From Cytophagaceae bacterium (GTDB lineage Bacteria > Bacteroidota > Bacteroidia > Cytophagales > Spirosomataceae), in NCBI GenBank assembly GCA_024642485.1, contig JAHEAY010000004.1:1-52850 (forward strand): a stretch of 52,850 nt of DNA, read 5' to 3'. The number at the start of each line of letters is the position of its first letter. Position 1 is the first letter of the stretch. The notes under the pieces are model-generated. The model was not told where the DNA came from. It was given only the letters and a program-made list of their open reading frames with translations, and did not search any database. The translations under genes and the position numbers were made by a program. This document shows, one piece after another, positions 1,114 to 26,159 of the stretch.

Positions 1114-1181
1114 ATTTTATAAAGACGAGAAATCGAATTTTATAATCATTCTTGTTAACTTGGACATTCAAACCTGAAATT

Positions 1182-2253: not shown

Positions 2254-2382
2254 AGTCGTCAGTCACTAGTCGTCAGTCGCTAGTCTGTAAGAGGAGAGCC
2301 TATTTATAAAAACTCTCAGCCTCTGGACTATCAACTGACAACTCGTGACTAACAACTGACGACTAGTGACTGACGACTAGCG
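2254..2382. repeat. Inverted array of 7-base repeats between two convergent genes
   Basis: Left part 2254-2288 is five heptamers of the type AGTCGTC / AGTCACT / AGTCGCT. Right part 2327-2382 is eight heptamers all beginning ACT (ACTGACG, ACTAGTG, ACTAGCG and variants). Bases 2257-2277 are the exact reverse complement of 2355-2375 (21 of 21), so the transcript could fold into a long hairpin around an A+T-rich centre. The left array begins one base after the dehydrogenase stop. The right array runs into the peptidase gene, whose TAG stop (2384-2386) belongs to the next ACTA unit. Confidence 0.85.
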
Positions 2383-2383
2383 A

Positions 2384-4414
2384 CTATTTCAAATACGTCG
2401 CCAACCAATTCCCAACTTCCTGATAATGAAACTTCGAATTATCGGGATTTAAGATCCAGTGATTCTCACCTGGAAAGACGATCAATTTACTCGGAATCTG
2501 TAAACGCTGGTGAATGCTCCAGTTTTCCAAGGTATTGTTGATTGGTACCCGGAAATCATTTTCCCCAACCGTCAACAACATTGGTGTCTTAAAATTGGCC
2601 GCAAAGCGCATCGGATTCTGTTCTTTCCATGTTTTGGTTGGCACCCAAGGAGCACCCCCATTCATCAATTCTCTCCCCCAAATCACATCGGAAGTCCCCC
2701 ATTGCGATTCTGAATTCACTAAGCCCGCATGTGAAATCAAGCATTTGAAATGCGAAGTTGTCGCCTGCATCCAGTTGGCCAAATGTCCGCCATAAGACGC
2801 TCCACCTGCCGCTTGACGTGACGCATCAATAAACGAATACCGTTTCATCGCATCAGCTGCAGCCTCTAAAATTTCATTTCCTGGTCCTTTGAATGGATCT
2901 AATTGAATGTCTTGTGCGAATTTTTCTCCATAGCCCACGGAACCTGTATAGTCCGTCATGACGATCACATAACCTGGAGCACCCAACACATAGGGATTCC
3001 AACGGTAACCAAATACATCTTTGAATGAACTCGCGGGTCCTCCGTGCATCAAGACAAACAAAGGATATTTCTTGGAGGCATCAAAACCTGCAGGGCGCAA
3101 GATAACACTGCGAATCATTTTGCCGCGTGACGATTTGGTCCAAAAAACCTCTGGCTTTGGCTGATCCAATTTCGCCAACGAAGCATCGTTGGCCTTTGAA
3201 ATCGCAACTGATTTTCCTGCATTCCAAACATACACTTCTGCTGGCGCAGCGAGGTGTTGGTATGTGTAAGCTATTGCATTTCCTGCCACCGATAAACCGG
3301 TGACGGAACCAACTTCTCCACCCAATATGTCCGTATGCGTTCCATTTTCGATCGAAATTTGAATTGCGCGGTCAACTCCTTGATCTTCAATGCTCGCAAA
3401 AATAAAATTACCTGACACTTCCCAATCATTAATCGGTCGATCAAGACCCGTCGCTAATTCGGTGCGATTTTCCATGGAAGGCCAAGCGAAACGATACATA
3501 TGCTCTAGATAGTAGATTTTATTACCATTCAAATGCCCAGCAGCAATCAGATACTTACCGTCTTCAGAAAATTGAACTTGAGAATAATCTGTAGGATCTT
3601 GACTCAATCGTTTTTCGGGGCCACCAGAAATAGAAACTGCATATAGATGTGAGTTCACAGACTGGTAGGCGGTGGTATTATATTCGGTTGTTGCCGTAAA
3701 GATAATTTGCTTAGAATCTGGACTAATGGCAAAAGAACCTAATTGAAAACCTTTGGATTCCACTAAACCGATTTTGGAAAACACATTGACTGGATTCGGT
3801 TTTTCAACAGTTAAATCCATCACATAAATATGCGATTGTTTTTCATCCAACCAGCTGTCCCAATAGCGAATGGGGAAAGACGTATACACACGCGCTTTGG
3901 TTTTGATTTTCTTCTTTTCTTCAGCTAATTTCTTACTAATTGAATCCGTAAATGCAGTCGCAAAAACGCGCGAAGTGAAAGCAATCAAACGACCGTCAGA
4001 ACTTATTTTAGGTGTCGAAATTCCGGTAGACAAACTGGTCAATCGTTGGGCTTCACCACCTAAATCCAAATTCAAACGGTATAATTGTGCAACCTCATCT
4101 CCTTCTCGTTTCGCTGTAAAAAAGATTTGATGTAAAGTAGGGTGCCAAAAGTAATTGTCTTCGCCCCCTCTTGAGTTTGTGATTTTACGCGGTTCTGTGG
4201 ACCCATCAGTAGCAGCCAGCCACAAATCAGTCGTTTGTTCCTCGGTATTATAAGATGTTTCAGTTCTACTATAAATCACCCATTTCCCAGAAGGGCTAAT
4301 CGCGGGCGTACCTATTTTTTTCAGCATCCACATGTTTTCATGTGACATGGCAGGTTTCTGAGCGAGCGTTGCATGTCCCAAGATAAGCAACACAAAGAGT
4401 AACATTTTTTTCAT
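2384..4414 (-). CDS. S9-family prolyl oligopeptidase / acylaminoacyl-peptidase, exported
   Basis: 676 residues from ATG 4414; an ATG three codons upstream (4423) is possible. MKKMLLFVLLILGHATLAQ is a signal peptide, so the enzyme acts in the periplasm or at the surface. The first ~400 residues contain TolB/WD40-like beta-propeller repeats (ISPSGKWVIYSR, ISSDGRLIAFTS, ISPDSKQIIFTA). The C-terminal alpha/beta-hydrolase domain has the nucleophile GGASYGGHLANW (Ser540), Asp620 in GENDFRVP and His652 in GENHW, the full S9 triad. Family members trim oligopeptides from the N-terminus. It is divergent from the M13 peptidase with about 53 bases between starts, so the two probably share a regulatory region. 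The stop codon lies in a heptamer repeat. Confidence 0.95.
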   Translation of the reverse strand: MKKMLLFVLLILGHATLAQKPAMSHENMWMLKKIGTPAISPSGKWVIYSRTETSYNTEEQTTDLWLAATDGSTEPRKITNSRGGEDNYFWHPTLHQIFFTAKREGDEVAQLYRLNLDLGGEAQRLTSLSTGISTPKISSDGRLIAFTSRVFATAFTDSISKKLAEEKKKIKTKARVYTSFPIRYWDSWLDEKQSHIYVMDLTVEKPNPVNVFSKIGLVESKGFQLGSFAISPDSKQIIFTATTEYNTTAYQSVNSHLYAVSISGGPEKRLSQDPTDYSQVQFSEDGKYLIAAGHLNGNKIYYLEHMYRFAWPSMENRTELATGLDRPINDWEVSGNFIFASIEDQGVDRAIQISIENGTHTDILGGEVGSVTGLSVAGNAIAYTYQHLAAPAEVYVWNAGKSVAISKANDASLAKLDQPKPEVFWTKSSRGKMIRSVILRPAGFDASKKYPLFVLMHGGPASSFKDVFGYRWNPYVLGAPGYVIVMTDYTGSVGYGEKFAQDIQLDPFKGPGNEILEAAADAMKRYSFIDASRQAAGGASYGGHLANWMQATTSHFKCLISHAGLVNSESQWGTSDVIWGRELMNGGAPWVPTKTWKEQNPMRFAANFKTPMLLTVGENDFRVPINNTLENWSIHQRLQIPSKLIVFPGENHWILNPDNSKFHYQEVGNWLATYLK

Positions 4415-4467
4415 AGAAAACATTTTGCTTCGTAAATTAGTTATTTAAACTTCATCTTAAAATACAC

Positions 4468-6495
4468 ATGAGAAAAAAATACGCTTTGTTTGGTGTGTTA
4501 GCGATTGCCATGGCATCGTTCGACCTGAACGCACAAAGTCCCGCTAAATTTATTGATCGGGCAAATATGAATTTTCAGGTTAAACCTGGAGATGATTTTG
4601 CAACATATTCCAACGGTAACTGGGTTAAAAACAATCCCATTCCTGCTAAAGAAACGCGCTGGGGAAGTTTTAATCAGTTACGCGATTTCAATATCAATGC
4701 AGTTAAAACAATCTTAGAAAGTACACAAGGTTCAAAGGCAGCAGCAGGTTCCGTTGAAAAGCGCGTGGCGGATTTTTATGCTGCAGCCATGGATAGTTTG
4801 GCGATTGAAAAATTAAGTTACACGCCTATTCAAGCCGACTTAAACCGAATTCAATCTCTACAATTTAAGTCGCAAATCGTAACTGAAATTGCACACTTGC
4901 GTAAATCAGGAGCGGCGTCTCCCCTATTTAGTTTTTATGTAGGTCAAGATCGTAAACAAGTGGATAAGATGGTTCCACAATTAGGCCAAGGAGGAACTTC
5001 ACTGCCTGATCGTGACTATTATTTGAAATCAGATGCCCGTAGCCTTAAAATCCAAGAGGCTTTCAAAAACTATGTGAGCACTTTATTCCAACTGGTTGGC
5101 ACAAATGAAGCTCAAGCAAAGTTGAATGCTGAATCAATTTTCCAATTGGAAAAAAAATTAGCCGAAGCACAAATGTCACGAGTGGAAATGCGTGATCCAT
5201 ATAAGACTTATAACAAATTTGCGTTTGCAGATTTTAATCAAAAAACACCTGCATTTAATTGGGCGATGACCTTCCAAGATTTTGGCACTACGGCACCTGA
5301 TTCTATGTTGGTTTCCGCACCAAAATTTTTCGAATCGGCAAATAAACTTTTGATAGAAACTCCATTAGAAACGTGGAAGACCTACTTAACATGGAATGTC
5401 TTGAAGGGTTCTGCGGCTTATTTGAGCTCTCCTTTCGTGAAAGCTAACTTTGCTTTTAACCAAGTCATTAGCGGACAAAAGGTTCAAACACCTCGTTGGC
5501 AACGAATGTCATCCTTGACAGATGGTACCATTGGTGAATTATTAGGCCAATTATACGTGGCAAAATATTTCAAACCTGAAGCAAAAGCGCGCATGGTAGA
5601 ATTGGTAGCTAATTTGCGTAAGGCATTTGAAATCCGTATCAATCAATTGGATTGGATGAGTGCAGAGACGAAGCAAAAAGCGAAGGACAAATTACATGCA
5701 TTTACGCCAAAAATTGGCTATCCAGACAAATGGAAAAACTATGATGGTTTAGAGATTTCATCTAATGAATTCTACAAAAATATTCGAAACGCAGGTGCAT
5801 GGGGATTCCAAGACAATATCAGTCAGATTGGCAAGCCTGTAGACCGTAGCAAATGGGGCATGACGCCACCAACAGTGAATGCCTATTACAGCCCGGTAAT
5901 GAATGAGATTGTATTTCCAGCAGGTATTTTACAATTCCCATTCTTTGATGCCAAAGCGGATGATGCCATTAACTACGGTGGTATTGGCGCTGTAATTGGC
6001 CATGAAATGTCACATGGATTTGACGATTCAGGTAGTCAATATGACAAAGACGGAACTTTGCGCAACTGGTGGTCGAAGGAAGATTTAGCAAAATTTAAAG
6101 CTAAGACTGAGCTATTAGGCAAACAATTTGATGCCTATACTATTTTGGACACCTTGCATGTAAATGGCAAATTGACCATGGGTGAGAACATTGGCGATTT
6201 GGGTGGTTTGAATATGGCTTATGAGGCATTCAAAATGACGAAACAAGGAAAATCAAAAGCAAAATTGGATGGCTTTACGCCAGACCAACGCTTTTTCTTA
6301 GCTTGGGCGCAAGTTTGGAGAGGATCTACTTTGCCAGAAACCGCAGCACAATTAGTACAAACAGACCCACATTCGCCGAATGAATTCCGGACGATTGGTA
6401 CGCCAGTCAACATGGATGCTTGGTATAAGGCATTTGATGTAAAACCAGGTGACAAATTGTATAAGAAACCGGAAGATCGGATTAAGATTTGGTAA
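4468..6495 (+). CDS. M13-family zinc metallopeptidase (neprilysin/PepO type), exported
   Basis: 675 residues with an N-terminal signal peptide ending near LNAQ. The N-terminal M13 domain contains YSNGNWVKNNPIPAKETRWG. The C-terminal domain has the zinc motif HEMSH (512-516), the third ligand Glu573 in GENIGDLGG, the substrate-binding NAYYSPVMNEIVFPAG and the terminal Trp typical of M13 enzymes. All catalytic residues are present and the length fits the family. M13 enzymes cleave oligopeptides on the N-side of hydrophobic residues. Its position beside an exported S9 peptidase and just before a SusC/SusD block suggests a role in extracellular peptide use (inference). Confidence 0.96.
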   Translation: MRKKYALFGVLAIAMASFDLNAQSPAKFIDRANMNFQVKPGDDFATYSNGNWVKNNPIPAKETRWGSFNQLRDFNINAVKTILESTQGSKAAAGSVEKRVADFYAAAMDSLAIEKLSYTPIQADLNRIQSLQFKSQIVTEIAHLRKSGAASPLFSFYVGQDRKQVDKMVPQLGQGGTSLPDRDYYLKSDARSLKIQEAFKNYVSTLFQLVGTNEAQAKLNAESIFQLEKKLAEAQMSRVEMRDPYKTYNKFAFADFNQKTPAFNWAMTFQDFGTTAPDSMLVSAPKFFESANKLLIETPLETWKTYLTWNVLKGSAAYLSSPFVKANFAFNQVISGQKVQTPRWQRMSSLTDGTIGELLGQLYVAKYFKPEAKARMVELVANLRKAFEIRINQLDWMSAETKQKAKDKLHAFTPKIGYPDKWKNYDGLEISSNEFYKNIRNAGAWGFQDNISQIGKPVDRSKWGMTPPTVNAYYSPVMNEIVFPAGILQFPFFDAKADDAINYGGIGAVIGHEMSHGFDDSGSQYDKDGTLRNWWSKEDLAKFKAKTELLGKQFDAYTILDTLHVNGKLTMGENIGDLGGLNMAYEAFKMTKQGKSKAKLDGFTPDQRFFLAWAQVWRGSTLPETAAQLVQTDPHSPNEFRTIGTPVNMDAWYKAFDVKPGDKLYKKPEDRIKIW

Positions 6496-6558
6496 GTTAA
6501 GAGTTAAGAATTAAGAGTTAAGAGTTAAGAATTAAGAGTTTAGAGTTAAGAAGTGAGA
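6496..6558. repeat. Tandem heptamer array GTTAAGA after the M13 peptidase stop
   Basis: Eight consecutive 7-base units (GTTAAGA, with ATTAAGA and GTTTAGA variants) from 6496 to 6551 and a decayed ninth unit to 6558. It begins at the first base after the TAA stop. The 7-base phase is never broken. No open reading frame or known element explains it; it matches the other intergenic arrays in period but not in unit sequence. Confidence 0.9.
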
Positions 6559-6600
6559 AATTTGTGAGTGATTCGCAATACCAAGCTTATTCTAAAGGAG

Positions 6601-6628
6601 CCCAGTGAGAAATCGCTGGGTTTCTTTT
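6601..6628 (+). terminator. Intrinsic terminator downstream of the M13 peptidase
   Basis: Stem CCCAGTGA / TCGCTGGG (8 pairs, one G-T) with loop GAAA at 6601-6620, followed by TTTCTTTT. It lies about 105 bases after the M13 stop, beyond the heptamer array, and has a T-tract only in the plus direction. Confidence 0.8.
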
Positions 6629-6645
6629 GTGTCAATGCCCTATTA

Positions 6646-6706
6646 GAGATGCGATATTTCGCGTGTCTTTAATCTTCATGATAACCCTAGGTTTCAGCCT
6701 GGGGTT
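6646..6706. repeat. Decayed GTAGAGACGCG-type element plus CCTGGGG palindrome
   Basis: 6646-6669 resembles the inverted-repeat arm seen at 22901, 26165 and 31647 but with changes (GAGATGCGATATTTCGCG). 6683-6706 forms a palindrome AACCCTAGG / CCTGGGGTT and is closely similar to 26217-26240, including the preceding tcat..taacc. The same two element types therefore occur together in both places. Confidence 0.6.
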
Positions 6707-6742
6707 TCCTATCCTAAAACCTAGAGATTAATAAACAGAAAA

Positions 6743-6768
6743 AAGCCCAAGGATTTCTCCTTGGGCTT
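6743..6768 (-). terminator. Intrinsic terminator of the first SusC/SusD operon
   Basis: Stem AAGCCCAAGGA / TCCTTGGGCTT with a four-base loop. Read on the minus strand it is followed by a run of six T. It lies 43 bases downstream of the SusD stop at 6811, behind a second palindrome. Confidence 0.85.
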
Positions 6769-6774
6769 TATATA

Positions 6775-6800
6775 TATATACGCGAAGCATCGCGTATATA
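6775..6800. repeat. Perfect palindrome TATATACGCGA / TCGCGTATATA
   Basis: An 11-base perfect inverted repeat with loop AGCA lies between the SusD stop (6811) and the terminator. The CGCGA...TCGCG core resembles the core of the dispersed inverted-repeat element, but the flanks are an alternating TA run. In RNA it would be a second hairpin at the 3' end of the transcript. Confidence 0.7.
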
Positions 6801-6810
6801 CATCAATAAA

Positions 6811-8256
6811 TTATTTACCGATGCTCGGGTTCGTTTGAACCTCTACCAATGGAATACCATAGATATAACGAGGATCAGATGGTTGAATTGTTGCACCAGC
6901 ACCGAAAGAAACCATCGGATCGCCGCGACGCGTCACATCGTTTGCACGGAAACCTTCCGCTAAGAATTCGATACGACGTTCCGTTAAGATAGCTTTGATT
7001 ACGTCAGCTTTGGTATCCAATGCTGGGAATACATAAGATGCATCCGAGCGACCGTGTACCGCTTTCAATAAAGCAATCGCACGCGTCAAACTTCCTGCTT
7101 CTGCTTCAGCTTCTGCTAAGTTTAACAATACTTCAGCATAACGAATGTTAGGTACATAATCTACATAGGGAGATACGCCACTAAATTTCGTTGAAGATGG
7201 AAATTTCGCCACAGAAGTTGTCGCAACTGTCAACTTCGTCTTGCGATCATCTGTTGCAGCAAATTGAGGATTACTGTAAATACCGATAGAACCCGTATTT
7301 AAATAATATTCCACGTTACCTGCATTGAAATAGTAACCTAATTGATTTTGCGTTCCTGGAGCGTTTGTCGCGTCCATTGGGAAAGAGAAAATCGATTCTG
7401 TCGTTGAATACGGTGCTTTGAAAACAGCAGAAACATCTGATTGCAATGCATGAGCAACACGAGCAGACGATTTGAATGGAGCCGTAGCTGAAACGATTTT
7501 ATTCGATTCAGTAATGACACCTGCAAAATCACCCATCGCTAATTTAACACGTGTTTTTAATGCGATTGCCGCATTTTTGTGTGCACGAGTCGTATTAAGT
7601 AAAGCGGTACCGTATGAATCTGGCAACTCCGTTTCCGCGTCATTCAAATCTTGTAAGATTTGTGCATAAACTTGAGCTACTGTACTGCGAGGCATGTCAT
7701 TATCCGCTGAAGATACAGATCCCTTCAAGCGCAATGGCAATCCAGCAGAAGCACCTTTATCCATGATATAAGGTTTTGCAAAGTATTGAACTAAAGAGAA
7801 ATAAGTCAATGCGCGCAAAAACTTTGCTTCCCCACGGTAGTTCGCCGCTAATGTTGACGAGACTGCGTTCGGGTTTGCAGCTAAACCTTCTAAGAATAAA
7901 TTAGCACGGTTAATAGTCAAATATCCTTGAATCCAGAAACCTGCCAAATACGAATCTGACGGATCCTGATTTCCTTGATAAGTTGAATACCCTGTTACCG
8001 AGTTCGTTGTACGATTAACCCAATCTTCTCCACGGATATCGTTGTAGATTAAATAACGACCTCCAAACAAACTACCATTTTTGGCAGAACCATATAAACC
8101 ATTTACTTGGGAAAGGACACGAGCAGGGGTATTAAATACCGTTGCATCAGACAAATCCAATTCCGGAACTGCATTAAGGAACTCCTTATTGCAAGAGGAA
8201 ACCGTCATCGCAAGTGCGATGGACAAAATCCCTATTTTATTTGTGAATAATTTCAT
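6811..8256 (-). CDS. SusD/RagB-family outer-membrane lipoprotein (pair 1)
   Basis: 481 residues, a usual SusD length. The signal peptide ends in a lipobox (TVSSC, lipidated Cys near residue 22), so it is predicted to be a surface lipoprotein capping the SusC channel. The N-terminal helical region with SYLAGFWIQGYLTINRANLFLEGL and the later YRGEAKFLRALTYFSLVQYFAKPY are typical TPR-like SusD segments. The C-terminal ERRIEFLAEGFRANDVTRRGD is the characteristic SusD end motif. It follows the SusC gene by 18 bases in the same operon. The ligand cannot be read from sequence; flanking peptidases make peptides possible. Confidence 0.95.
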   Translation of the reverse strand: MKLFTNKIGILSIALAMTVSSCNKEFLNAVPELDLSDATVFNTPARVLSQVNGLYGSAKNGSLFGGRYLIYNDIRGEDWVNRTTNSVTGYSTYQGNQDPSDSYLAGFWIQGYLTINRANLFLEGLAANPNAVSSTLAANYRGEAKFLRALTYFSLVQYFAKPYIMDKGASAGLPLRLKGSVSSADNDMPRSTVAQVYAQILQDLNDAETELPDSYGTALLNTTRAHKNAAIALKTRVKLAMGDFAGVITESNKIVSATAPFKSSARVAHALQSDVSAVFKAPYSTTESIFSFPMDATNAPGTQNQLGYYFNAGNVEYYLNTGSIGIYSNPQFAATDDRKTKLTVATTSVAKFPSSTKFSGVSPYVDYVPNIRYAEVLLNLAEAEAEAGSLTRAIALLKAVHGRSDASYVFPALDTKADVIKAILTERRIEFLAEGFRANDVTRRGDPMVSFGAGATIQPSDPRYIYGIPLVEVQTNPSIGK

Positions 8257-8274
8257 TTTCTTTATCTGTTAAAA

Positions 8275-11424: not shown

Positions 11425-11448
11425 GTTGTTTAGTTTAATGAATGAATT

Positions 11449-11456
11449 CAAATATA
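11449..11456 (-). promoter_or_regulatory. Candidate -7 box TATATTTG for SusC/SusD pair 1
   Basis: Exact match to the Bacteroidota -7 consensus TAnnTTTG on the minus strand, 25 bases before ATG 11424. That gives a short leader and argues against the ATG at 11451, which overlaps the box. No clear -33 TTTG is visible at the right distance. Confidence 0.5.
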
Positions 11457-11524
11457 GGACTGAAACATGAAAAGCCCAGCTAATGTTTTAAAAAATTTGC
11501 ATTTTGACATGATTTGCCAAATAA

Positions 11525-11553
11525 AAAAGGGCGACCTAATGGATCGCCCTTTT
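11525..11553 (-). terminator. Intrinsic terminator of the second SusC/SusD operon
   Basis: Stem AAAAGGGCGA / TCGCCCTTTT (10 pairs, 9-base loop). On the minus strand the stem runs into a T-tract. It lies 20 bases after the SusD stop at 11573 and separates pair 2 from pair 1. Confidence 0.88.
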
Positions 11554-11572
11554 AAAATCAATGAAAAATTGA

Positions 11573-13009: not shown

Positions 13010-13027
13010 TATATAATTTTAGGATGA

Positions 13028-16231: not shown

Positions 16232-16318
16232 GTTGATTAGTTTAATTAATGAAAAAATAAAACATTTAGTTTGGCAAATTAGGAATTTTCCGATAAAGAC
16301 CAAAGAAAATATTAAAAA

Positions 16319-16349
16319 AATAGGGGTTCCCAACTTGGAAACCCCTATT
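16319..16349 (-). terminator. Intrinsic terminator of the third SusC/SusD operon
   Basis: Stem AATAGGGGTT / AACCCCTATT, 10 pairs, followed on the minus strand by seven T. It lies 20 bases after the SusD stop at 16370 and about 90 bases before the SusC 2 start, so pair 2 needs its own promoter. Confidence 0.88.
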
Positions 16350-16369
16350 AAATGGAATAAATCCGAATC

Positions 16370-18001: not shown

Positions 18002-18040
18002 GTTCTTCAAATTTAAATAATACCTTTTTCTATTCTGAAA

Positions 18041-21000
18041 TTAGAAACCAATGTTCAACTGTACTTGGTATGAACGTAAGTTTGGCATTGTGTTGTGATC
18101 CACACCACGGTCCCAAGCTGAGTTATTACCCCCAGAAGAAATTTCAGGATCCATACCTGTGTAGTTTGTCAACGTATACAAGTTACGTCCAGAAGCTACT
18201 AATTGTAACTTGCGGAATCCTTTCATACCTAAGGCTTTCACTAAATCTACACCGATCGAGATGTTACGTAAACGTGCAAAAGAAGCATCTTCATAGAAGT
18301 AGTTCTTCGTACCGTTACGAGAAACCTCAGCATAAACACCACGGTAGAAAGCTGACCAAGCACCCGTCTCTCCATTGATAGTTAACGGATTTTGGTAGTC
18401 TGAGTGAATACCATCACGGTACATCCATTCTTTCGTTTGGTTATACAAGTGAGCTCCTTGAACTAAATCAACTTGCAAGTTGAATGTTACAATTCCTTTG
18501 TATGACAACTCATTGATAAACGATGCGTTGAATGCAGGGTTTGGATCACCAAAGCTATATTGTTTAGATGAGAAGTAAGGTGCTTTCGTAGATTTCTTAA
18601 CTACCCAGCCATTGCTAGCTACCTCATATAAAGAACGGTTACCTTCTGCAATTGCATAAGTACCATCTGGCAATTTAGCATCTAAGCTATGAACGCCCAT
18701 GAAACCATACAATTGACCAATTTTCTCACCTGCACGTAATACGTATCCAGATGAACCAGCTGCAGAAGTAACAACAACCTCAGCATTACCACGCACTGCT
18801 GTAATCTCAGATGTTTGCTTTCCGAAGTTCGTTGTAAAGTTCCAAGTCCAATCTGCATCTTTGTAGATTTGTGCATTTAAGCTCGCTTGGATACCATTTG
18901 AAGCTAAAGAGAACGCGTTATCTTTAACTGTACCAATACCTGTTGAAGGTGCTGCATCTACGTTAAAGATCGCATTATCTGTTGAACGCTTCCAGTAAGA
19001 TCCAGAGAAATTCAATGAATTCAACCAAGGTGATGATTTACCTAAGTTCAAACCGATATCCGTACCAATTTCTAATTCTTTCGAAATCTCCACATTCAAA
19101 TTAGGATTTGATTGTGTCAAAGGGAAATAGAATGCGTTACCTGAACCAATAACACCTGTGTTCAACGTGATGTAACGGTCAAATGCGTTAGGCTGAATAC
19201 CTGCCTCACCATATGCTGCACGAATTTTGAAATCTTCTAAAGTAGAAGAAATTTTAGAGTTCTTGAAGAATCCTAATTCAGAAATACGTAAGTAAGCATC
19301 TCCACGAGGGAATGTTTGTGGCGTAGATGCCGCACCAAACGCAGATGAATAATCCGTACGGAAACCACCTGAAATACCTCCCAATGTTCCATAATCGAAA
19401 CGTTGTGTCGCTAAATAACCATAAGTAATGAAAGGCTCACGGTAATCACGTGCTACATAAGTTGCAGCTGCTTGCGATGTATTAAATGGTGTGTAGTTTG
19501 GTAAACCAATACCATAAGATACATACTCCTTGTTTTCACGGTTACGGTAGTCAAATGCTACTTGCGTAGTCGTGCGCAAAGGAATGTTCAAACCAAAATC
19601 TTTCTCCAAGTCTGTCTTGATGTAAGCAGATGCTAAGAAGTTTTGGAATGATTTCGTGTACTCATACTTATTCAACTCACCAGTAGCATCATTACCATTG
19701 TAATTGTAGATCCAGTATTGTTGATCCATGATGTTCTTGTTACCTGTTTGATTCAAGTAAGTATAAACACGATTTTCTGTTTGATAATTGATACCGTATT
19801 TCGCATCCAATGTCAAGAACTTGTTTACTTCATAGTTCAAGTTCAAGCTTTGGTTAATATCAATACGCTTTGAATCTGTCGTAGAATAAGTATTAACCGC
19901 ATTTGGGTTATAACCATTCACACCTACTGCATCTCCAAAATACGCTGGATAATTTCCATCAGCATCTTTGAAATCATAGTTTGCAAATGGACGTGAGTTA
20001 AATACTGAATAAATGATTGAACGACCCGTTCCATCATTGATCGTATTCTTCGTATACACTAATTGAGTAATTGAACGCAATTTCAAACCTTTCGCTAACT
20101 CAAAACCTAAGTTGGCCGTCAAGTTCGAACGATTCAAACCACCCACATTTTTGAATGGACCCGCGTTGTCAGCATTTGACAAAGTCAAGCTGTAATCACT
20201 TTTATCTGCACCACCTGAAATCGCAAGTGAATTCGTGTAGTTTGTCGTTGGAACAAAGAACATTCCAAAGTGATCATAATATTTCAAGTTTTTGTCGTAA
20301 GGCTTGTTGATCAAAACCGTAGGATCTGTACTTGCAAAAATTACGTTCTCAGAATAAGAACCATACGTAGGATCCAATGTCAAAGGATTTCCTGAACCAC
20401 CAATAACCTCGTTATTCGCATTCGTTTTGAAACCGTGCATGGTTGCTTTGTGCAAACCTCCTACGTTTAATGGAGTAGAATTAATCACAGATGAGTTAAT
20501 ATCAATGTTAACTTTACCTGCTTTACCTTTTTTCGAGAACAATTGGATAACCCCGTTCGCTCCTTGTGCACCGTAAATCGTTGCAGCCGCAGCTCCTTGG
20601 ATAACCTCCACACGCTCAACGATATTTAAGTCGATAGAACCTAAATCTGTCGCTCCTAATTCAACCCCATCCAATAAAATCATTGGGCTTGTACCACGGT
20701 TGATTGTGTTGATACCACGTAAAACGATATTTACCGGCTGGCCTGGCATACCGTTCACAGCAGAAATCTGCGCTCCGGCAATTTTACCTACCAAAGCCTG
20801 ATCAATCGAAGCCGATGGAACAGAAGGTAAATTTTTCGCTGTAATCGCTTGTACATCAATCGCCGTCGAACGCTTGTCGATCGCCGTACCTGTACCCGTT
20901 ACAACTACTTCAGATAATTGGCGTGCATCAGTCGTCAACTTCACGTTGATTACAGATTGGCTTCCTACCTGAACACTTTGAGCATTTAATCCTACAAAAG

Positions 21001-21220
21001 AGAATACTAATGTAGCACCATTAGGAACTGCAACGGTATATTCACCGTCCACATTTGTTTGAGTTCCTTTTCCAGTTCCTTTGATGGAAACTGTTACACC
21101 GGGTAAACCTGAGCCGTCCTCAGCTGAGGTCACCTTTCCTGTTACCTTTCTATCCTGCGCTACTAAACTAGTAAGCGAGAAGAAAGCCAACAAAAAAGTC
21201 ATGAGTAAATTTTTTTTCAT
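18041..21220 (-). CDS. SusC/RagA-family TonB-linked outer-membrane transporter (pair 3)
   Basis: 1059 residues from ATG 21220. Signal peptide to about residue 21 (TSLVAQ), CarboxypepD_reg-like domain (GKVTSAEDGSGLPGVTVSIKG, FSFVGLNAQSVQV), TonB-box-like LSEVVVTGTGTAIDKR, plug with VLRGINTINRGTSPMILLDG and VEVIQGAAAATIYGAQGANGVI, barrel ending in RSYQVQLNIGF. The leader is unlike those of SusC 1 and 2. The 244-base gap up to the permease gene holds A+T-rich DNA with no ORF and presumably the promoter; no exact TAnnTTTG box was found in it. Confidence 0.95.
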   Translation of the reverse strand: MKKNLLMTFLLAFFSLTSLVAQDRKVTGKVTSAEDGSGLPGVTVSIKGTGKGTQTNVDGEYTVAVPNGATLVFSFVGLNAQSVQVGSQSVINVKLTTDARQLSEVVVTGTGTAIDKRSTAIDVQAITAKNLPSVPSASIDQALVGKIAGAQISAVNGMPGQPVNIVLRGINTINRGTSPMILLDGVELGATDLGSIDLNIVERVEVIQGAAAATIYGAQGANGVIQLFSKKGKAGKVNIDINSSVINSTPLNVGGLHKATMHGFKTNANNEVIGGSGNPLTLDPTYGSYSENVIFASTDPTVLINKPYDKNLKYYDHFGMFFVPTTNYTNSLAISGGADKSDYSLTLSNADNAGPFKNVGGLNRSNLTANLGFELAKGLKLRSITQLVYTKNTINDGTGRSIIYSVFNSRPFANYDFKDADGNYPAYFGDAVGVNGYNPNAVNTYSTTDSKRIDINQSLNLNYEVNKFLTLDAKYGINYQTENRVYTYLNQTGNKNIMDQQYWIYNYNGNDATGELNKYEYTKSFQNFLASAYIKTDLEKDFGLNIPLRTTTQVAFDYRNRENKEYVSYGIGLPNYTPFNTSQAAATYVARDYREPFITYGYLATQRFDYGTLGGISGGFRTDYSSAFGAASTPQTFPRGDAYLRISELGFFKNSKISSTLEDFKIRAAYGEAGIQPNAFDRYITLNTGVIGSGNAFYFPLTQSNPNLNVEISKELEIGTDIGLNLGKSSPWLNSLNFSGSYWKRSTDNAIFNVDAAPSTGIGTVKDNAFSLASNGIQASLNAQIYKDADWTWNFTTNFGKQTSEITAVRGNAEVVVTSAAGSSGYVLRAGEKIGQLYGFMGVHSLDAKLPDGTYAIAEGNRSLYEVASNGWVVKKSTKAPYFSSKQYSFGDPNPAFNASFINELSYKGIVTFNLQVDLVQGAHLYNQTKEWMYRDGIHSDYQNPLTINGETGAWSAFYRGVYAEVSRNGTKNYFYEDASFARLRNISIGVDLVKALGMKGFRKLQLVASGRNLYTLTNYTGMDPEISSGGNNSAWDRGVDHNTMPNLRSYQVQLNIGF

Positions 21221-21464
21221 GTACTTATTAGTTAGGGTTGAAAAATTTGTTGATAAATAATCAATCTGCTTGAAAATTAGAGAAATATTAATAAACTGTC
21301 AAATTTTAACCAAATTATTAACGGTAAAATTGACCAATCTCAGAATATTAAAAGGAAAATCGCTCAAAATACACCCTATTTGAGCTATCCTGCAAAAAAT
21401 AGTTTCACTATTCACAGGTATCAAAAAGAATGCATTTGGGAATAAATTAAACTATTCCAAGAAA

Positions 21465-22778
21465 TCAGAGAATTTGATTTAAAATAAGAACTCCGAATAG
21501 TCCCGTAATAGATACAATCGTCTCCATCAATGACCAGGAGCGTATGGTTTCTTTGACAGATAAATTAAAATACTCTTTAAACATCCAAAAGCCTGTGTCA
21601 TTCACATGCGAAAACATTAAACTTCCCGCACCTATACTCAATACCATCAAGTTGGGGTTCACCCCACCCGCACTCACAATAGGTAAGATCATTCCAGCTG
21701 CCGTTAAACCTGCTATGGTTGCAGAACCAATGCAAACGCGAATGATGGCTGCCATCAACCAACCAAGCACTAATGGTGGAATAGGTAAATTACCTAAATG
21801 ACCCGCAATTTCTTTACTCACACCCGAGGCTAATAAAACCTCCTTAAATGTCCCAGCTCCAGCAATAATCAATAAAATCATCGCAACATCTTTCACGGCA
21901 TCCCCATAAATAGACATAACTGATTCCATCGATTTCCCTAGTCGGAGCCCTAAAGTATACGTCGCAAAACAAATCGCAATCAACATCACCATCGCTGGAT
22001 CCGCAATTAAATGTAAAATAGGAGACGCAGGTGAATCCTTTCCTAATTGTATATCCAAGGCTGTTGTACATACTAATAGGAATACGGGTAACAAAGCAGT
22101 TAAAAAACTAGAAGTCATGCTTGGCAACTCGTCGGCAGGAATTTCTTGCGTCACAAATGATTTTGAGGCCTTTGGCTGAATATGACCCAAAGTTTTCGCA
22201 AAAAGCGGTCCTGCCAAAATTATCGCTGGGATAGATACCAAAATACCATAAGTCAAAGTCAAGCCCATATTCGCATTAAATTGAGCCACTAATGCCGCAG
22301 GTGATGGATGCGGGGGCAAATACCCATGGGCTACTGATAATGATGCCATCATAGGAACGCCCGCCATCAAGGGATTTAATTTATATCGCTGAACAAGCGC
22401 AAAGATTAAAGGAATCATCAAAACAAATCCCACATTATAAAACAAGGGAATACCGATTACGAAGCCGGTGACCATGAGGCCCCAACTGATATGCTTCTCG
22501 CCGAATAGGCGAATCAAGGACGAAGAAATTTGTTGGGCCGCCCCACTCGACGCAACTAATTTTCCTAACATTGCTCCCAACACGATAATGGTCACCAAGG
22601 AACCTAAGGTATCTCCTAAACCTTTTTGAATCGATTTAGCCAAATCAGGCAAGGGTAAACCCAGCAGAATCCCGCTGAAAATACTGACCAATAAAAATGC
22701 TAAGAATGAATTTACCTTTAAATAGGTAATTAGAAGGACTAAGAGTCCTATGGACAGTATTACAATTGCAATCGACAT
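21465..22778 (-). CDS. GntP-family permease (gluconate or related sugar acid : H+ symporter)
   Basis: 437 residues, all hydrophobic, with about 12-14 membrane segments. Family signatures are visible: the N-terminal FLAFLLVSIFSGILLGLPL, GDTLGSLVTIIVLGAMLGKL, IPLFYNVGFVLMIPLIFAL and VAHGYLPPHPSPAAL, which corresponds to the conserved HG(F/Y)LPPHP of gluconate permeases. The start is ATG 22778; the TTG at 22802 is a poor alternative. GntP members carry gluconate, fructuronate, glycerate or related acids across the inner membrane; this one cannot be assigned further. It is read in the same direction as the SusC 3 gene, with a 244-base gap, and may or may not belong to its regulon. Confidence 0.9.
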   Translation of the reverse strand: MSIAIVILSIGLLVLLITYLKVNSFLAFLLVSIFSGILLGLPLPDLAKSIQKGLGDTLGSLVTIIVLGAMLGKLVASSGAAQQISSSLIRLFGEKHISWGLMVTGFVIGIPLFYNVGFVLMIPLIFALVQRYKLNPLMAGVPMMASLSVAHGYLPPHPSPAALVAQFNANMGLTLTYGILVSIPAIILAGPLFAKTLGHIQPKASKSFVTQEIPADELPSMTSSFLTALLPVFLLVCTTALDIQLGKDSPASPILHLIADPAMVMLIAICFATYTLGLRLGKSMESVMSIYGDAVKDVAMILLIIAGAGTFKEVLLASGVSKEIAGHLGNLPIPPLVLGWLMAAIIRVCIGSATIAGLTAAGMILPIVSAGGVNPNLMVLSIGAGSLMFSHVNDTGFWMFKEYFNLSVKETIRSWSLMETIVSITGLFGVLILNQIL

Positions 22779-22833
22779 CTTATTAAATAGGTTTTGCACC
22801 AAAGTACAAATAAATCCTAGATAACAAAAGGTG

Positions 22834-22875
22834 TTGGACGTGGGACTTTAGACATTGGACCTTTGACGTTAGACG
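22834..22875. repeat. Tandem heptamer array TTGGACG/TTAGACG
   Basis: Six in-phase 7-base units: TTGGACG, TGGGACT, TTAGACA, TTGGACC, TTTGACG, TTAGACG. The array lies in the 232-base gap between the permease start and the nucleotidyltransferase stop, next to the inverted-repeat element at 22901. The unit is the same as in the array at 26125. Confidence 0.85.
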
Positions 22876-22900
22876 ACATTTCATTACGAGTTAATAAAAC

Positions 22901-22995
22901 GTAGAGACGCGATACCTCGCGTCTTTTATTTATTATTTACGAGTTATCGTATTATATACAAATCAAAAAAAAGACGCGAGGTATCGCGTCTCTAC
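22901..22995. repeat. Inverted-repeat element, copy 1 (27-base perfect arms)
   Basis: Arm 22901-22927 (GTAGAGACGCGATACCTCGC, then GTCTTTT) is the exact reverse complement of 22969-22995, with 41 A+T-rich bases between. Each arm is itself palindromic (AGACGCGA-TACC-TCGCGTCT). No ORF lies inside, so it is a non-coding REP- or MITE-like unit. Confidence 0.88.
22961..22994 (-). terminator. Intrinsic terminator of the kinase-nucleotidyltransferase operon, made by the repeat arm
   Basis: Read on the minus strand, the arm next to the nucleotidyltransferase folds as AGACGCGA / TCGCGTCT with a 4-base loop and runs directly into eight T. It begins about 16 bases after the stop at 23011. Confidence 0.75.
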
Positions 22996-23010
22996 AATAA
23001 AATTAGCATG

Positions 23011-23880
23011 CTAGAAATCCCCGTAGGTCTCTTCCAAATATTGCTGCATCACCATGATATCCTCTTTCGAAGTCAAATCAGGCACATTTTCCGACAAAGG
23101 AATCGCGTAAAATCCACGCCCCTCACCTTCTCCAAACATGACAACCGAAGTAGGCAACTCCTTCTCATTACGAACAAGATGAAACGGTGTCTTTGCCAAA
23201 TAAGGCAAGAAGGTCGATGCCTCAAATACAAAAACATTCATGCTTACTCCTAAACGACCAATCTTAGCCATCAATTCCGCCGCCTGCTCTGCCGTAGGCT
23301 TTTCAATGATCTCCAATAAATAACCCTCTTCATCCGTACGAATCAAAGCAAATGCTGAAATACGCTCCGCTGGATACAATAAACTATCTCGGTGATACGA
23401 AATTAATGCATTGGGTTCAGGAGAATTCCAAAGCGTTTTCAGCGCATTCACGCTGTATAAATTATCCGAGTTACAAACAATAACACGCCCTTTTTGCCAG
23501 TCGGCATGTTGCATCAAAGCTTGATAAACCGCATCAGCTGTACCCGCTGGTTTCTCACGATCCGCAGCGATTTGTTGGCGTGCGAATACGATCTTCATAC
23601 CCCAACAAGCGTCTTTGGCCATTAATTCCTCACAATATTCCTGCGAAACGGCATCTGTAGGATGCAATAATAGCATCACTTCCTCAATCCCCGCCAAATG
23701 CGCATTATATAATTGATAATCAATTAAGGTTTTTCCATTTTTCCCTACCTGAATCATCCCCTTTGTCACCGAATTCGCTTGTGCTACCAAAGAAGGATCT
23801 AAATCACTTGCTCCTTCAGCCATCGCTTTCTTCATCCGCGATGCCATTCCGCCCGCCAAAATCAATAATCTCTTTTTCAT
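23011..23880 (-). CDS. Sugar-1-phosphate nucleotidyltransferase-like protein
   Basis: 289 residues, NTP-transferase (GT-A) fold. The N-terminal nucleotide loop reads LILAGGMASRMKK, followed by an unusual stretch of about 20 residues before the lysine of TKGMIQVGKNGKTLIDYQL. KPAGTADAVYQAL matches the sugar-nucleotide-binding GTADAV type motif and VIVCNSDNLYS the metal-site region. It would transfer NMP to a sugar 1-phosphate. The gene starts 3 bases after the GHMP kinase stop, so the two are one operon: kinase makes the sugar 1-phosphate, this enzyme activates it. Sugar and nucleotide are not determinable here. No C-terminal left-handed beta-helix is present. Confidence 0.85.
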   Translation of the reverse strand: MKKRLLILAGGMASRMKKAMAEGASDLDPSLVAQANSVTKGMIQVGKNGKTLIDYQLYNAHLAGIEEVMLLLHPTDAVSQEYCEELMAKDACWGMKIVFARQQIAADREKPAGTADAVYQALMQHADWQKGRVIVCNSDNLYSVNALKTLWNSPEPNALISYHRDSLLYPAERISAFALIRTDEEGYLLEIIEKPTAEQAAELMAKIGRLGVSMNVFVFEASTFLPYLAKTPFHLVRNEKELPTSVVMFGEGEGRGFYAIPLSENVPDLTSKEDIMVMQQYLEETYGDF

Positions 23881-23883
23881 ATC

Positions 23884-24960
23884 TTAATAAAATAAACTTG
23901 CTTTTTCTACTTGAGTACCCACATCCACTCGGATGACATAGGCTTTCCCTCCTTCTTTTTCAATAGCTTCGACGACTGCCTCTGGATTTGAAGGCGCATA
24001 AGCAAACATACAACCTCCTCCCCCTGAACCATTGATTTTAGCCCCTAATGCACCTGCCGCCAAAGAAGCCGAAATCATCCGGTCAATTTTAGGCGTCGAG
24101 ATTTGCTTATGTTCACGTAGGTTTTCTTGATGTTCATTTAATAGTTTCCCTAATCGAACATCATCCCAAACTTCGTCTCCTTCAAACATTTTCTTTGCTG
24201 CCAGGAGTATATCCCGATCAGATATATTGGCAGTTAACAATACCCATTCATCTTCGCTTAATTGACTACGATATTGCTCACAAAAAGCCACATTTGTTAT
24301 TGCCAAATCAAACGAAGGATCAATTGCTTTAATCTTTTGAATTCCTCCCAAGGTTCCAAATTTAACACGAGATAAAATCCCCAGGGTATCTTTAGGTTCA
24401 CCTGAATCTCCCAAGACAAATGTTCCCAAAGCTTGTTGGTAAGTCGTAATCGAAATTTCGGGTTGGCTCGCTAAATAAATCACATTCCCCACTGCCGTTG
24501 AATATTGATCCATCATACCACCTGGCTCTGTAAATTCCAAAACCTCCGCTTCATAAGTAATCTCACCTACCTCTTTCTGCGAATAACCTAATTGGTACAT
24601 TTCATTCAACAATTCTACCCAAGAAACGAGTAATGCTGATGAACTCGAAGTACCTGAATTTATGGGAATATTTCCGCGTACTTCAATTTCTAAACCCTTA
24701 TCAAACACATGACCTTTTCGGGCCAATACATTTAAGACACTTTTGAAATAATCACGCTCTTTGGTATATACAAGCGGAAAATCCAGGCTAAATGTTTCTG
24801 ATTTTTGAATATCAGGCAATTCAAAATGAACCATCCGATCTGGTCGGAATGCACCCTTCAATTGAATACGTTTTGATATCGCAGCCGCAATGACAGGCAA
24901 ACCCAAATAATCTTGATGTTCACCAAACAAGCAAATCCGACCCGGGGTAGATACAATCAT
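23884..24960 (-). CDS. GHMP-family sugar kinase, galactokinase-like
   Basis: 358 residues. Motif 1 GRICLFGEHQDYLG (7-20) matches the galactokinase signature, motif 2 GNIPINSGTSSSSAL (96-110) is the ATP phosphate loop, GGMMDQYS (147-154) places a catalytic-base Asp at 151 as in galactokinases, and motif 3 KINGSGGGGC (308-317) closes the active site. This points to an anomeric sugar kinase (sugar to sugar 1-phosphate) rather than mevalonate-type. Galactose, galacturonate, arabinose or fucose are all possible. It is first in the operon with the nucleotidyltransferase and divergent from the HGSNAT-type gene, with exact -7 boxes for both directions in the 77-base gap. Confidence 0.88.
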   Translation of the reverse strand: MIVSTPGRICLFGEHQDYLGLPVIAAAISKRIQLKGAFRPDRMVHFELPDIQKSETFSLDFPLVYTKERDYFKSVLNVLARKGHVFDKGLEIEVRGNIPINSGTSSSSALLVSWVELLNEMYQLGYSQKEVGEITYEAEVLEFTEPGGMMDQYSTAVGNVIYLASQPEISITTYQQALGTFVLGDSGEPKDTLGILSRVKFGTLGGIQKIKAIDPSFDLAITNVAFCEQYRSQLSEDEWVLLTANISDRDILLAAKKMFEGDEVWDDVRLGKLLNEHQENLREHKQISTPKIDRMISASLAAGALGAKINGSGGGGCMFAYAPSNPEAVVEAIEKEGGKAYVIRVDVGTQVEKASLFY

Positions 24961-24977
24961 ATTTTTTTGTTCGTAAA

Positions 24978-24985
24978 CAAAAGTA
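24978..24985 (-). promoter_or_regulatory. Candidate -7 box TACTTTTG for the GHMP kinase operon
   Basis: Exact TAnnTTTG match on the minus strand, 18 bases before ATG 24960. It predicts a leader of about 10 bases. Confidence 0.5.
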
Positions 24986-25010
24986 CAAAATTGAATTTAA
25001 AAAAATAGTT

Positions 25011-25018
25011 TACCTTTG
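25011..25018 (+). promoter_or_regulatory. Candidate promoter (TTG ... TACCTTTG) for the HGSNAT-type gene
   Basis: Exact TAnnTTTG box 20 bases before ATG 25038, with a TTG at 24991-24993 (17 bases upstream) as a possible -33 element. The best-formed promoter in the window. Confidence 0.55.
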
Positions 25019-25037
25019 AACGTCATAAGCTGAACCC

Positions 25038-26123
25038 ATGATTAAAAAACGCTTCCCCGCTGTTGATTATTTCCGAGGTTTCATTCTCGTACTACTCGCT
25101 GCAGAAAGCGCTGGGGTGTACAGTAAGCTCGAAGATCTTTTCCCTCACTCTTTTGTGATACAGCAATTTTTTCATGCTTCCTGGAAAGGATTGCATTTCT
25201 TGGATTTATTCCAACCCGGCTTTATGATGATTGCGGGTTCTGCCTTGTATTTTTCTACTTACAAACGCATGGATGAAGGGGCATCATATGCAGAATTATG
25301 GCCCAAAGTGCTGAAACGGTCATTCTTGTTGCTTTTCTTCGGGATTGTTTTGATTTGTGTTCACCGTGGTGAAATGGTTTTTGAGCTGTGGAATGTGTTG
25401 TGCCAACTCGCCTTCACGACGATTATCACTTTTGCATTATTGCGATTTTCCATCCCATTACAACTTGCGGCATCCTTATTTTTATTGTTATTATCACATT
25501 CATTATACGTCTTTACCGACATCCCAGGTTACGATCAGGCATATACGCCTGATAAAAATTTTGGCTCCTATATCGACATGATTTTAATGGGTAAATTGAG
25601 CCAAGGGCATTGGATAGCCATGAATGCTATTCCGACAGCAGCACATACGATCTGGGGAGCGTTAATCGGCCGGCTGATTCATCGTACGTCGCCACCCAAA
25701 ACAGTATTAAGAACATTAATTGGCCTAGGTTTATTAGGCATATTAGTAGGTTATGGTCTCGATTTAGCTGGTTTACCTATTATTAAACGCACGGCAACAC
25801 TTTCCTTTACGGTGGCTTCCGCAGGTTGGGTTACACTCATGATGGCTTTATTTTATGCCAATTGGATCAACGAAAAACCACGTTTCCAATTACCAAACTA
25901 TTTGAATTCGATGGGAAATAACTCGATATTCATTTACCTCTTTTTTGAAACCTTAGTTCCGCAATGGCTGACGAAAACGACCTATGTATTTGTGGGATTT
26001 ATTTCGCAAATCAGCCATATCCCGTCGGATTGGGCTCAGGTTATTAATGCGTTTGTAGCATTAGCCATTGTAATCAAATTGGCAAGCTTTCTGGATAGCA
26101 AGAAGATTTATTGGAAATTGTAG
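25038..26123 (+). CDS. HGSNAT/DUF5009-type multi-span membrane acyltransferase
   Basis: 361 residues with about 9-10 membrane segments. The N-terminal RFPAVDYFRGFILVLLAAES and FQPGFMMIAGSALYFS match bacterial relatives of heparan-alpha-glucosaminide N-acetyltransferase (DUF5009/YeiB-like), where a cytosolic acyl-CoA is used to acylate a substrate across the membrane. C-terminal NSMGNNSIFIYLFFETLVP is also conserved in this group. Substrate unknown; in other Bacteroidota such genes accompany amino-sugar or glycan loci. It is divergent from the sugar kinase operon. The stop codon is followed after one base by a heptamer array. Confidence 0.85.
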   Translation: MIKKRFPAVDYFRGFILVLLAAESAGVYSKLEDLFPHSFVIQQFFHASWKGLHFLDLFQPGFMMIAGSALYFSTYKRMDEGASYAELWPKVLKRSFLLLFFGIVLICVHRGEMVFELWNVLCQLAFTTIITFALLRFSIPLQLAASLFLLLLSHSLYVFTDIPGYDQAYTPDKNFGSYIDMILMGKLSQGHWIAMNAIPTAAHTIWGALIGRLIHRTSPPKTVLRTLIGLGLLGILVGYGLDLAGLPIIKRTATLSFTVASAGWVTLMMALFYANWINEKPRFQLPNYLNSMGNNSIFIYLFFETLVPQWLTKTTYVFVGFISQISHIPSDWAQVINAFVALAIVIKLASFLDSKKIYWKL

Positions 26124-26124
26124 A

Positions 26125-26159
26125 TTGGACGTTGGACTTTAGACGTTGGACGATGGAGA
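26125..26159. repeat. Tandem heptamer array TTGGACG after the HGSNAT-type gene
   Basis: In-phase units TTGGACG, TTGGACT, TTAGACG, TTGGACG and a decayed ATGGAGA, starting two bases after the TAG stop. Same unit as at 22834-22875, and again followed within 10-30 bases by the inverted-repeat element. Confidence 0.85.

Follow-up and report, generated by a model that had tools for sequence, protein, structure and literature searches.

Short tandemly repeated repetitive (STRR) heptamers occur in filamentous cyanobacteria. Here we describe intergenic heptamer arrays in a 52,850-nucleotide stretch of DNA from a Cytophagaceae bacterium (hereafter the window; assembly GCA_024642485.1, contig JAHEAY010000004.1, positions 1 to 52,850 of the forward strand) and in related genomes of the genus Aquirufa; four of the window's arrays had been singled out from its letters in an original prediction. 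The closest precedent, as far as the portions of the report we draw on go, is the quadruplex-forming heptamers of Xanthomonas (GGGAATC) and Nostoc PCC 7120 (GGGGA(C/T)T), which are intergenic, seven nucleotides long and degenerate as GGGANTN (Rehm et al, 2015, PMC4692102). According to those portions, the repeats lie mostly within 50 bp of stop codons on the coding strand, some overlapping the stop, and also within 50 bp upstream of start codons on the non-coding strand, so that in either orientation they stand nearest their 5' neighbouring open reading frame (ORF). Inverted pairs number 70 and 75 in two Xanthomonas genomes and are few in Nostoc, and 83% of the examined repeats occupy the same place in a second Xanthomonas (PMC4692102).

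Three further systems are relevant, each again taken from part of its source. Direct repeats of TAACTGA are reported from five Bacteroidetes as well as from Beggiatoaceae and Cyanobacteria, and in some genomes they are interspersed with other heptamers, so the original prediction's suggestion that nothing comparable was described in Bacteroidota is not supported; in the main genome of that study the repeats stand mostly just 5' of start codons in forward sense, with 169 direct sets and one indirect (MacGregor, 2015, PMC4679880). Repetitive extragenic palindromes (REPs) tagged GTAG or CGTC are intergenic palindromes of 20-40 bp, which mostly follow coding regions, in gaps where the flanking ORFs converge or run the same way, and often come in pairs of opposite orientation; the ends of GTAG REPs often provide a TAG stop, and the elements are hypothesised to be miniature transposons with a link to RAYT proteins (PMC3733652). 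BrickBuilt, a miniature inverted-repeat transposable element (MITE) of Porphyromonas gingivalis, has a 23-nt unit and inverted ends in its leader and tail, and lies 49-591 nt from coding sequences (PMC4596501).

Our survey covered 1.69 Mb from four Aquirufa genomes, one per species: 494 kb of the window's own draft genome (G000; 2.54 Mb, 238 contigs, 89% complete) and 400 kb each of A. antheringensis (G002), a pond metagenome-assembled genome (MAG; G006) and A. nivalisilvae (G008). Eight contigs making up about two-thirds of the own sample were picked for AGTTAAG arrays or as the window, and the sampled contigs of the relatives were drawn from those with a CAAAG match. ORFs were called with a home-made scorer, not a standard gene finder. 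Four N-reading stretches of the own sample were excluded from array counts, and arrays lying more than half inside a called ORF were tallied separately (eight with period 7 or 14 across the four samples, some of them plain ORF ends or spurious ORFs). In this material, 96 of 107 intergenic tandem arrays had a period of 7 or a multiple of 7 (own genome 29/29, G002 18/19, G006 25/29, G008 24/30), and one Markov shuffle of each sample yielded zero arrays of score 14 at periods 2-30. As the original prediction had anticipated, matching at lag 7 exceeded that at lags 5, 6, 8 and 9 in the intergenic DNA of all four samples, and the seven-base step extended across many unit families that behave alike. 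Lag-match fractions in the intergenic DNA of the own sample showed local peaks at 7, 14, 21 and 28, and its coding DNA showed no peak at 7 or 14.

The arrays are placed non-randomly, and the expected association with gene 3' ends was borne out: 54 of 94 arrays (57%) overlapped an ORF boundary or lay within 6 nt of one, where arrays put at random into these gaps would do so in 14% of cases (2000 draws, maximum 27%). Gaps between convergent genes carried arrays most often (35 of 114), followed by co-directional (23 of 314) and divergent gaps (5 of 185). The main regularity, which the original prediction missed, is that arrays have a fixed sense, reading from the ORF boundary into the gap, and frequently form inverted pairs. 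Across ten families, 110 arrays shared the common inward sense, 13 had the opposite sense and 2 were unassigned; family labels for sense were assigned after the data had been seen, so that the test is one of non-random orientation within a family. Within 30 nt of an ORF boundary the common sense prevailed by 87 to 2, and 11 of the 13 exceptions sat at least 49 nt from the nearer boundary. A test by G-minus-C skew, which mislabels units balanced in G and C, had the same sign (80 to 12, 2 ties): G exceeded C on the inward strand in 61 arrays versus 10 on the stop side and in 19 versus 2 on the start side, with one tie each. Arrays on the start side run antisense to the adjoining gene, and since the inward rule holds at starts as well as stops, it concerns the ends of intergenic regions.

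Many regions carry arrays at both ends. We found 38 such regions (own genome 11, G002 7, G006 11, G008 9), in 24 of which the two arms match with a local score of at least 12. Arms of the same region matched better than arms of different regions in G002 (14.6 versus 6.2) and G008 (16.4 versus 8.5), and only weakly better in G006 (15.0 versus 12.4). Some gaps consist wholly of a hairpin from stop to stop, as at position 240185 of G008. The common sense persists where the arms do not match: of 14 regions scoring 8 or less, 13 show it in both arms, as judged by eye. One site holds a heptad stem in G008 and its relative G044 and what by eye is an ordinary hairpin-plus-T-run terminator in a further relative, G027. 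Separately, in the comparison of G006|167 with G002|240, one species has heptad arms and the other, at much the same place, a simple inverted repeat lacking periodicity, which suggests that the stem is what is kept.

The units themselves belong to particular sets of genomes; no tree was built, and we therefore speak of sets and not of clades. Matches to CAAAGNN numbered 143 in G002, 114 in G004, 64 in G005, 44 in G003 and 9 in G006, with 0-2 in six other searched genomes, and matches to AAAGNNT numbered 62 in G024 (the same genome as G006), 9 in G031 (the same as G002) and 0-8 in four others. Among 38 genomes of the genus, 18-nt patterns of the units TAAGAGT, AATGTAG and AGAGTAG occurred in 5, 6 and 10 genomes, respectively, in disjoint sets, and reversed-pattern controls gave zero matches. 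A less restricted family, the AGTCGCT-type arrays, is present in the own genome, G002 and G006.

At orthologous sites, position can be kept while the unit changes. G002 and G006 (mean orthologue identity 89.8%) share 64 orthologous gaps of at least 20 nt in both, of which 55 are array-free, 7 carry arrays in both genomes and 2 in one. Judged by eye, as are all our assignments of unit family at orthologous sites, the family is kept at G002|154 and G002|230 and changed at G002|150, G002|212, G002|228, G002|241 and G002|244; the left-hand flanking proteins of these five changed gaps are 87-98% identical. At G002|150 the two genomes have the same array length and register with differing units, in 40 nt between conserved flanks. 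Both arms have changed jointly at G002|212, G002|241 and G002|244, at G008|138, and in G029 at a site compared across six genomes, and at G008|100 one arm only has changed. G008 and G044 (91.6%) have 9 of 14 array gaps in common, with 4 found in G008 only and 1 in G044 only. Copy number also varies, with 5 units versus about 13 at G008|71 and 14 perfect units versus 18 at another site. The latter is an array of AATGTAG in A. nivalisilvae (L188 2188-2288; G008 C11 62188-62288), with the 18 units in G044; G029 carries another unit family at the AATGTAG site, which may be of use in strain typing.

A single gene stop illustrates the range. Behind the stop of the M13 peptidase gene that adjoins one of the window's arrays, 20 loci including our own comprise 6 with detected arrays, 4 with two or three heptad-like units (by eye) and 10 with none, and five unit families occur at this one site. 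Among named species, A. antheringensis has the M13 peptidase most like the window's (83% identity); that of a MAG is 85% identical. Two MAG records titled Spirosoma fluviale (L067 and L075) have M13 genes 82% and 70% identical to the window's, against 55-58% in other Spirosoma records, and their titles look wrong.

Within arrays, units vary in a restricted manner. In several families only two or three columns vary (GACnTTn, AATnnTn and AGAnTAn, among others). In arrays of at least 42 nt, a set that includes arrays of best period 14 or 21 and hence favours those lags, similarity at lags 7, 14 and 21 was flat in the own genome (0.77, 0.78 and 0.78) and likewise in G002 and G008, and fell with lag in G006 (0.80, 0.77 and 0.72). 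Neighbouring units were not significantly more alike than in order-shuffled arrays (5% level) in 9 of 10 families, the exception being AAAGAAT in G006; most arrays are short, so this test has low power. The missing nearest-neighbour gradient is not the trace that recent local duplication leaves. In 9 of 10 families a unit resembled others of its own array more than it did units from elsewhere, the excess being 0.07-0.82 of 7 positions, and arrays thus keep some identity of their own. Different arrays also share blocks of sequence: compared with shuffles of unit order, pairs sharing 18-nt blocks numbered 61 versus 32 in G006, 18 versus 10 in G002 and 53 versus 46 in the own genome (barely above), with no excess in G008, and 28-nt blocks outnumbered those of every shuffle in the own genome (5 against at most 4) and G008 (3 against at most 2) and not in G002 or G006.

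The features of the window that bear on its arrays are as follows.

1152..2252, plus strand: GFO/IDH/MocA oxidoreductase gene (ORF call, PF01408), whose stop precedes array 1a
2254..2285, plus strand: array 1a, period 14 (AGTCGTC/AGTCACT), inward sense, beginning 1 nt past the stop that ends at 2252
2326..2386, minus strand: array 1b, period 21 (GACTAGC/GACTGAC), inverted relative to 1a and including the minus-strand gene's stop at 2384-2386
2384..4423, minus strand: prolyl oligopeptidase family S9 gene (ORF call, PF00326), convergent with the oxidoreductase gene
4468..6495, plus strand: M13 peptidase gene (ORF call, PF05649/PF01431), the anchor of the orthologous-site comparison
6495..6559, plus strand: array 2, period 7 (AGTTAAG), inward sense, sharing the last base of the stop at 6495
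6600..6629, plus strand: probable intrinsic terminator (by eye) 3' of array 2, similar in the relative G046
22834..22874, plus strand: array 3 (TTGGACG/TTAGACA; period 7/21, degenerate), flanking the start side of a GntP permease gene on the minus strand
22901..22995: two dispersed GTAGAGACGCGAT palindromes in inverted orientation, adjoining array 3 and recurring elsewhere in the own sample
25038..26123, plus strand: gene with no Pfam match (ORF call, Pfam), whose stop precedes array 4
26125..26157, plus strand: array 4, period 7 (TTGGACG), inward sense, directly 3' of the stop ending at 26123
26165..26271: two GTAGAGACGCGAT-type palindromes in inverted orientation 3' of array 4, the right one holding the stop of a minus-strand gene (gene end 26268)

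Direct reading and Tandem Repeats Finder placed all four arrays where the original prediction had them, and the presence of seven-base arrays at these places is confirmed. What had been read as one array at 2254-2382 is instead two arrays of opposite orientation with a 40-nt array-free middle. An uninterrupted 24-bp stem is predicted between 2254-2277 and 2355-2378, and the gap holding the two has a predicted fold of -57.9 kcal/mol (z -4.2). The strict seven-base step ascribed to all four arrays stood in part. Among 1000 shuffles of all the window's intergenic DNA, the best lag-7 score had a 95th percentile of 9.0 and never exceeded 12.5; arrays 2 and 4 keep a clean step, with lag-7 scores (35.5 and 16.0) reached by 0 of 1000 shuffles. 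Array 3 is weaker (11.0, matched by 0.8% of shuffles), and arrays 1a and 1b score 6 and 7, no better than shuffled DNA, and stand out instead at lags 14 and 21 (15.5 and 22.5). Arrays 3 and 4 have a common unit, TTGGACG/TTAGACG. Contact with stop codons, claimed for three of the four, is seen for the first array (both halves), the second and the fourth, and array 3 lies instead near the start of a minus-strand gene. Rfam returned no match for positions 1-30000 of the window. Pairs of GTAGAGACGCGAT...ATCGCGTCTCTAC palindromes occur at 22901-22995, 26165-26271 and 31647-31705 and recur in other intergenic regions of the own sample; they are GTAG-tagged, as known REPs are, and no RAYT was found in the genome.

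The best account of these patterns is, in our view, concerted evolution of the arrays. Our tentative reading, to which we give somewhat less than an even chance, is that they are paired 3'-end stems evolving in concert, with their layout kept over their letters. On this reading the arrays would be the arms of a class of intergenic elements located chiefly behind stops, with gaps between convergent genes as the commonest setting; each arm would read from the ORF boundary into the gap, and in some gaps two facing arms would be able to form a long stem. Whole units would be gained and lost by seven-nucleotide misalignment during replication, setting the copy number, and template switching or gene conversion would spread units among the arrays of one genome and from arm to arm. 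The retained trait would be the inward, stop-abutting and often stem-forming layout and not the letters, and this layout would probably serve as a two-way transcript end or a 3'-protecting stem. The seven-nucleotide step itself would most likely be a property of the replication machinery, a proposal that the part of PMC4679880 we draw on credits to Mrazek 2007.

Several observations weigh against this reading. Unit change is inconstant, and about 7 of the 9 gaps common to G008 and G044 keep their broad unit family (by eye). Site sharing with G027 is lower, at 3/8 for G008 and 2/7 for G044 (mean orthologue identities of the G027 pairs 89.0% and 88.7%; comparisons among these three genomes are mutually non-independent). 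In the own genome, arms match no better within regions (11.2) than between them (11.0), so stem formation is not universal. Convergent gaps fold with a median z of -3.8 with arrays (n=27) and -3.0 without (n=30; P 0.13), and the array-linked folding gain in co-directional gaps is likewise not significant (P 0.07). Stops with arrays show neither a shortage nor a surplus of ordinary terminators (convergent 16/53 versus 54/234, co-directional 3/17 versus 49/333), and at G008|75 the array-bearing species retains other hairpins (by eye). Conversion should leave block sharing between arrays, and this exceeds unit-order shuffles by a modest margin only. Finally, nothing in this reading accounts for the fixed inward sense where the two arms belong to different families.

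A rival reading takes the arrays as tandem binding sites: a degenerate heptad of the inward strand, in RNA or DNA form, would be recognised by a protein or an RNA-protein complex, and its spacing, conserved columns and inward sense would be maintained by selection. The restriction of variation to two or three columns, the lack of a neighbour gradient in 9 of 10 families, the common sense of non-matching arms and an unchanged unit count at two switched sites all agree with this, and binding-site selection accounts for the column pattern and weak gradient about as well as concerted evolution does. Because each genome holds several unrelated families that change between relatives, however, several readers of shifting specificity would be needed. 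The excess similarity within arrays speaks for some local copying, no candidate protein was identified, and half of the 20 same-genus loci are array-free behind the same M13 peptidase gene; we regard such binding sites as a serious contender but an unlikely one. Mobile miniature inverted-repeat elements of the MITE or REP type (the latter including bacterial interspersed mosaic elements, BIMEs), whose arms are only incidentally heptad arrays, would fit the commonness of inverted arms and the dispersed repeated sequence in 34 of 80 array-bearing gaps versus 38 of 530 array-free ones (four samples; gap length was uncontrolled and some matches are tRNA). In G044 this contrast is absent (4/15 versus 9/31), more than half of array-bearing gaps have no repeated core, and the arms abut stop codons and are not set within old spacer. 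A search for RAYT (Y1_Tnp, PF01797), which covered the window's own 89%-complete genome only, gave 0 matches, and we consider mobile elements improbable.

Plain replication slippage, in which each array grows independently from a local seed and seven nucleotides is the preferred slip, is favoured by the runs of 14 and 18 perfect units found at the same site and by copy-number change between conserved flanks, which show that whole units are indeed gained or lost, and by the similarity of units within arrays; a seven-nucleotide polymerase contact has also been proposed (Mrazek 2007, as cited in the part of PMC4679880 used here). Independent growth alone would yield neither genome-wide units nor a common inward sense nor the lack of a neighbour gradient, so that slippage by itself is already strained by these results and, to our minds, a little less probable than mobile elements. 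A dedicated enzyme that copies degenerate heptads from a template into the gap, starting at the ORF ends, would explain the few variable columns, the lacking neighbour gradient, the genome-set units and the single step length. The common generator suggested in the original prediction finds no support here, however: of the 38 genomes of the genus, 5 gave reverse transcriptase domains and none was found in the other 33, which include the array-rich, 99%-complete G031 and G044, and searches for a writer, limited to RAYT in the own genome and to reverse transcriptase, produced no other candidate. We hold such an enzyme to be very improbable.

We rejected several other readings. Rho utilisation has been described by YC dimers spaced 9-13 nt apart (PMC9160355, in the part consulted), and the pyrimidine-rich arm of many families has YC every 7 nt; we dropped Rho utilisation sites because this spacing falls outside that range. 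Translation stops in all frames would suit units containing TAG or TAA, yet arrays of CAAAGAG/CAAAGTT are free of stops, which excludes them as a general cause. G-quadruplexes were rejected for these arrays, with GGG in only 6 of 94 and four or more GGG runs in 2 of 94. A reverse transcriptase or telomerase-like writer and a RAYT-driven origin were set aside on the search results given above, as was a general replacement of terminators by arrays on the terminator counts and folding comparisons.

Beyond Aquirufa, 12 of 18 intergenic arrays in 66 loci of other Bacteroidota had period 7 or a multiple, and the same loci showed no overall lag-7 excess; only certain groups seem to be heavily loaded with arrays. 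Of 11 such arrays in gaps, 7 were G-rich on the inward strand, 3 on the opposite strand and 1 on neither. Stop-codon heptad arrays with a G-rich inward strand occur in two Bacteroidota MAGs from outside the genus (L086 1403-1472 and L144 1454-1502), and the array of L106 has the opposite sign. A 21-nt repeat at L033 401-477 lies wholly within an ORF, reads as a glycine-rich stretch and is unlike the heptads in nature. TTTAGGG is the plant telomere unit, and an array of it on a Sphingobacteriaceae MAG contig (L096 8946-8987) may be real or contamination. A literature search, mostly without subscription papers, gave no report of units being replaced species by species while their sites are conserved, and the match for Aquirufa, repeats and genome was, by its title, an irrigation-water microbiome study.

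Heptamers are reported to be the most abundant repeat class in most genomes and the commonest long-unit repeats in many bacteria (Mrazek 2007, as cited in the part of PMC4679880 we draw on), without an accepted reason. It is a long shot, which we rate just below plain slippage, that layout (a seven-nucleotide step, inward sense from ORF ends and inverted pairs) and not sequence unites the heptamer arrays of Gammaproteobacteria, Cyanobacteria and Bacteroidota as a single phenomenon, in which some cellular process writes or rewrites degenerate heptads at gene ends from a genome-specific vocabulary. If the Aquirufa arrays are the same phenomenon as those of Xanthomonas and Nostoc, quadruplexes are unlikely to be its general cause, since the inward layout is kept with units mostly free of G-tracts. 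The Aquirufa species group, some of it with named isolates, has orthologous arrays with switched units, sometimes in both arms, and so offers a natural experiment on the origin of the seven-nucleotide step, of the polarity and of the rewriting.

Overall, the Aquirufa arrays resemble each of the described systems in part. With the cyanobacterial STRR sequences they share the heptameric unit length. Like BrickBuilt, they are intergenic tandem repeats of Bacteroidota tied to inverted repeats, but they have period 7 and stand at ORF ends instead of having a 23-nt unit with inverted flanks (PMC4596501, as far as consulted). Like GTAG- and CGTC-tagged REPs they lie behind genes, often as inverted pairs; unlike them they are period-7 arrays, and RAYT was not found in the own genome (PMC3733652, in part). 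They share with the TAACTGA repeats the intergenic heptamer array and its occurrence in Bacteroidetes, but that system has one unit, TAACTGA tandem doublets numbered 0 on both strands of the four Aquirufa samples, and the Aquirufa arrays are mostly at stops (PMC4679880, in part). The nearest likeness is to Xanthomonas and Nostoc, again within the parts of PMC4692102 used here: in both, intergenic seven-nucleotide arrays have a fixed inward sense, overlap some stops and form inverted pairs. The Aquirufa units differ in being mostly without G-tracts and in falling into several families per sampled genome, and the arrays favour convergent gaps more strongly than those of Xanthomonas, 16% of which lie between convergent ORFs. 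A further difference is that one and the same site can hold different units in related Aquirufa species.

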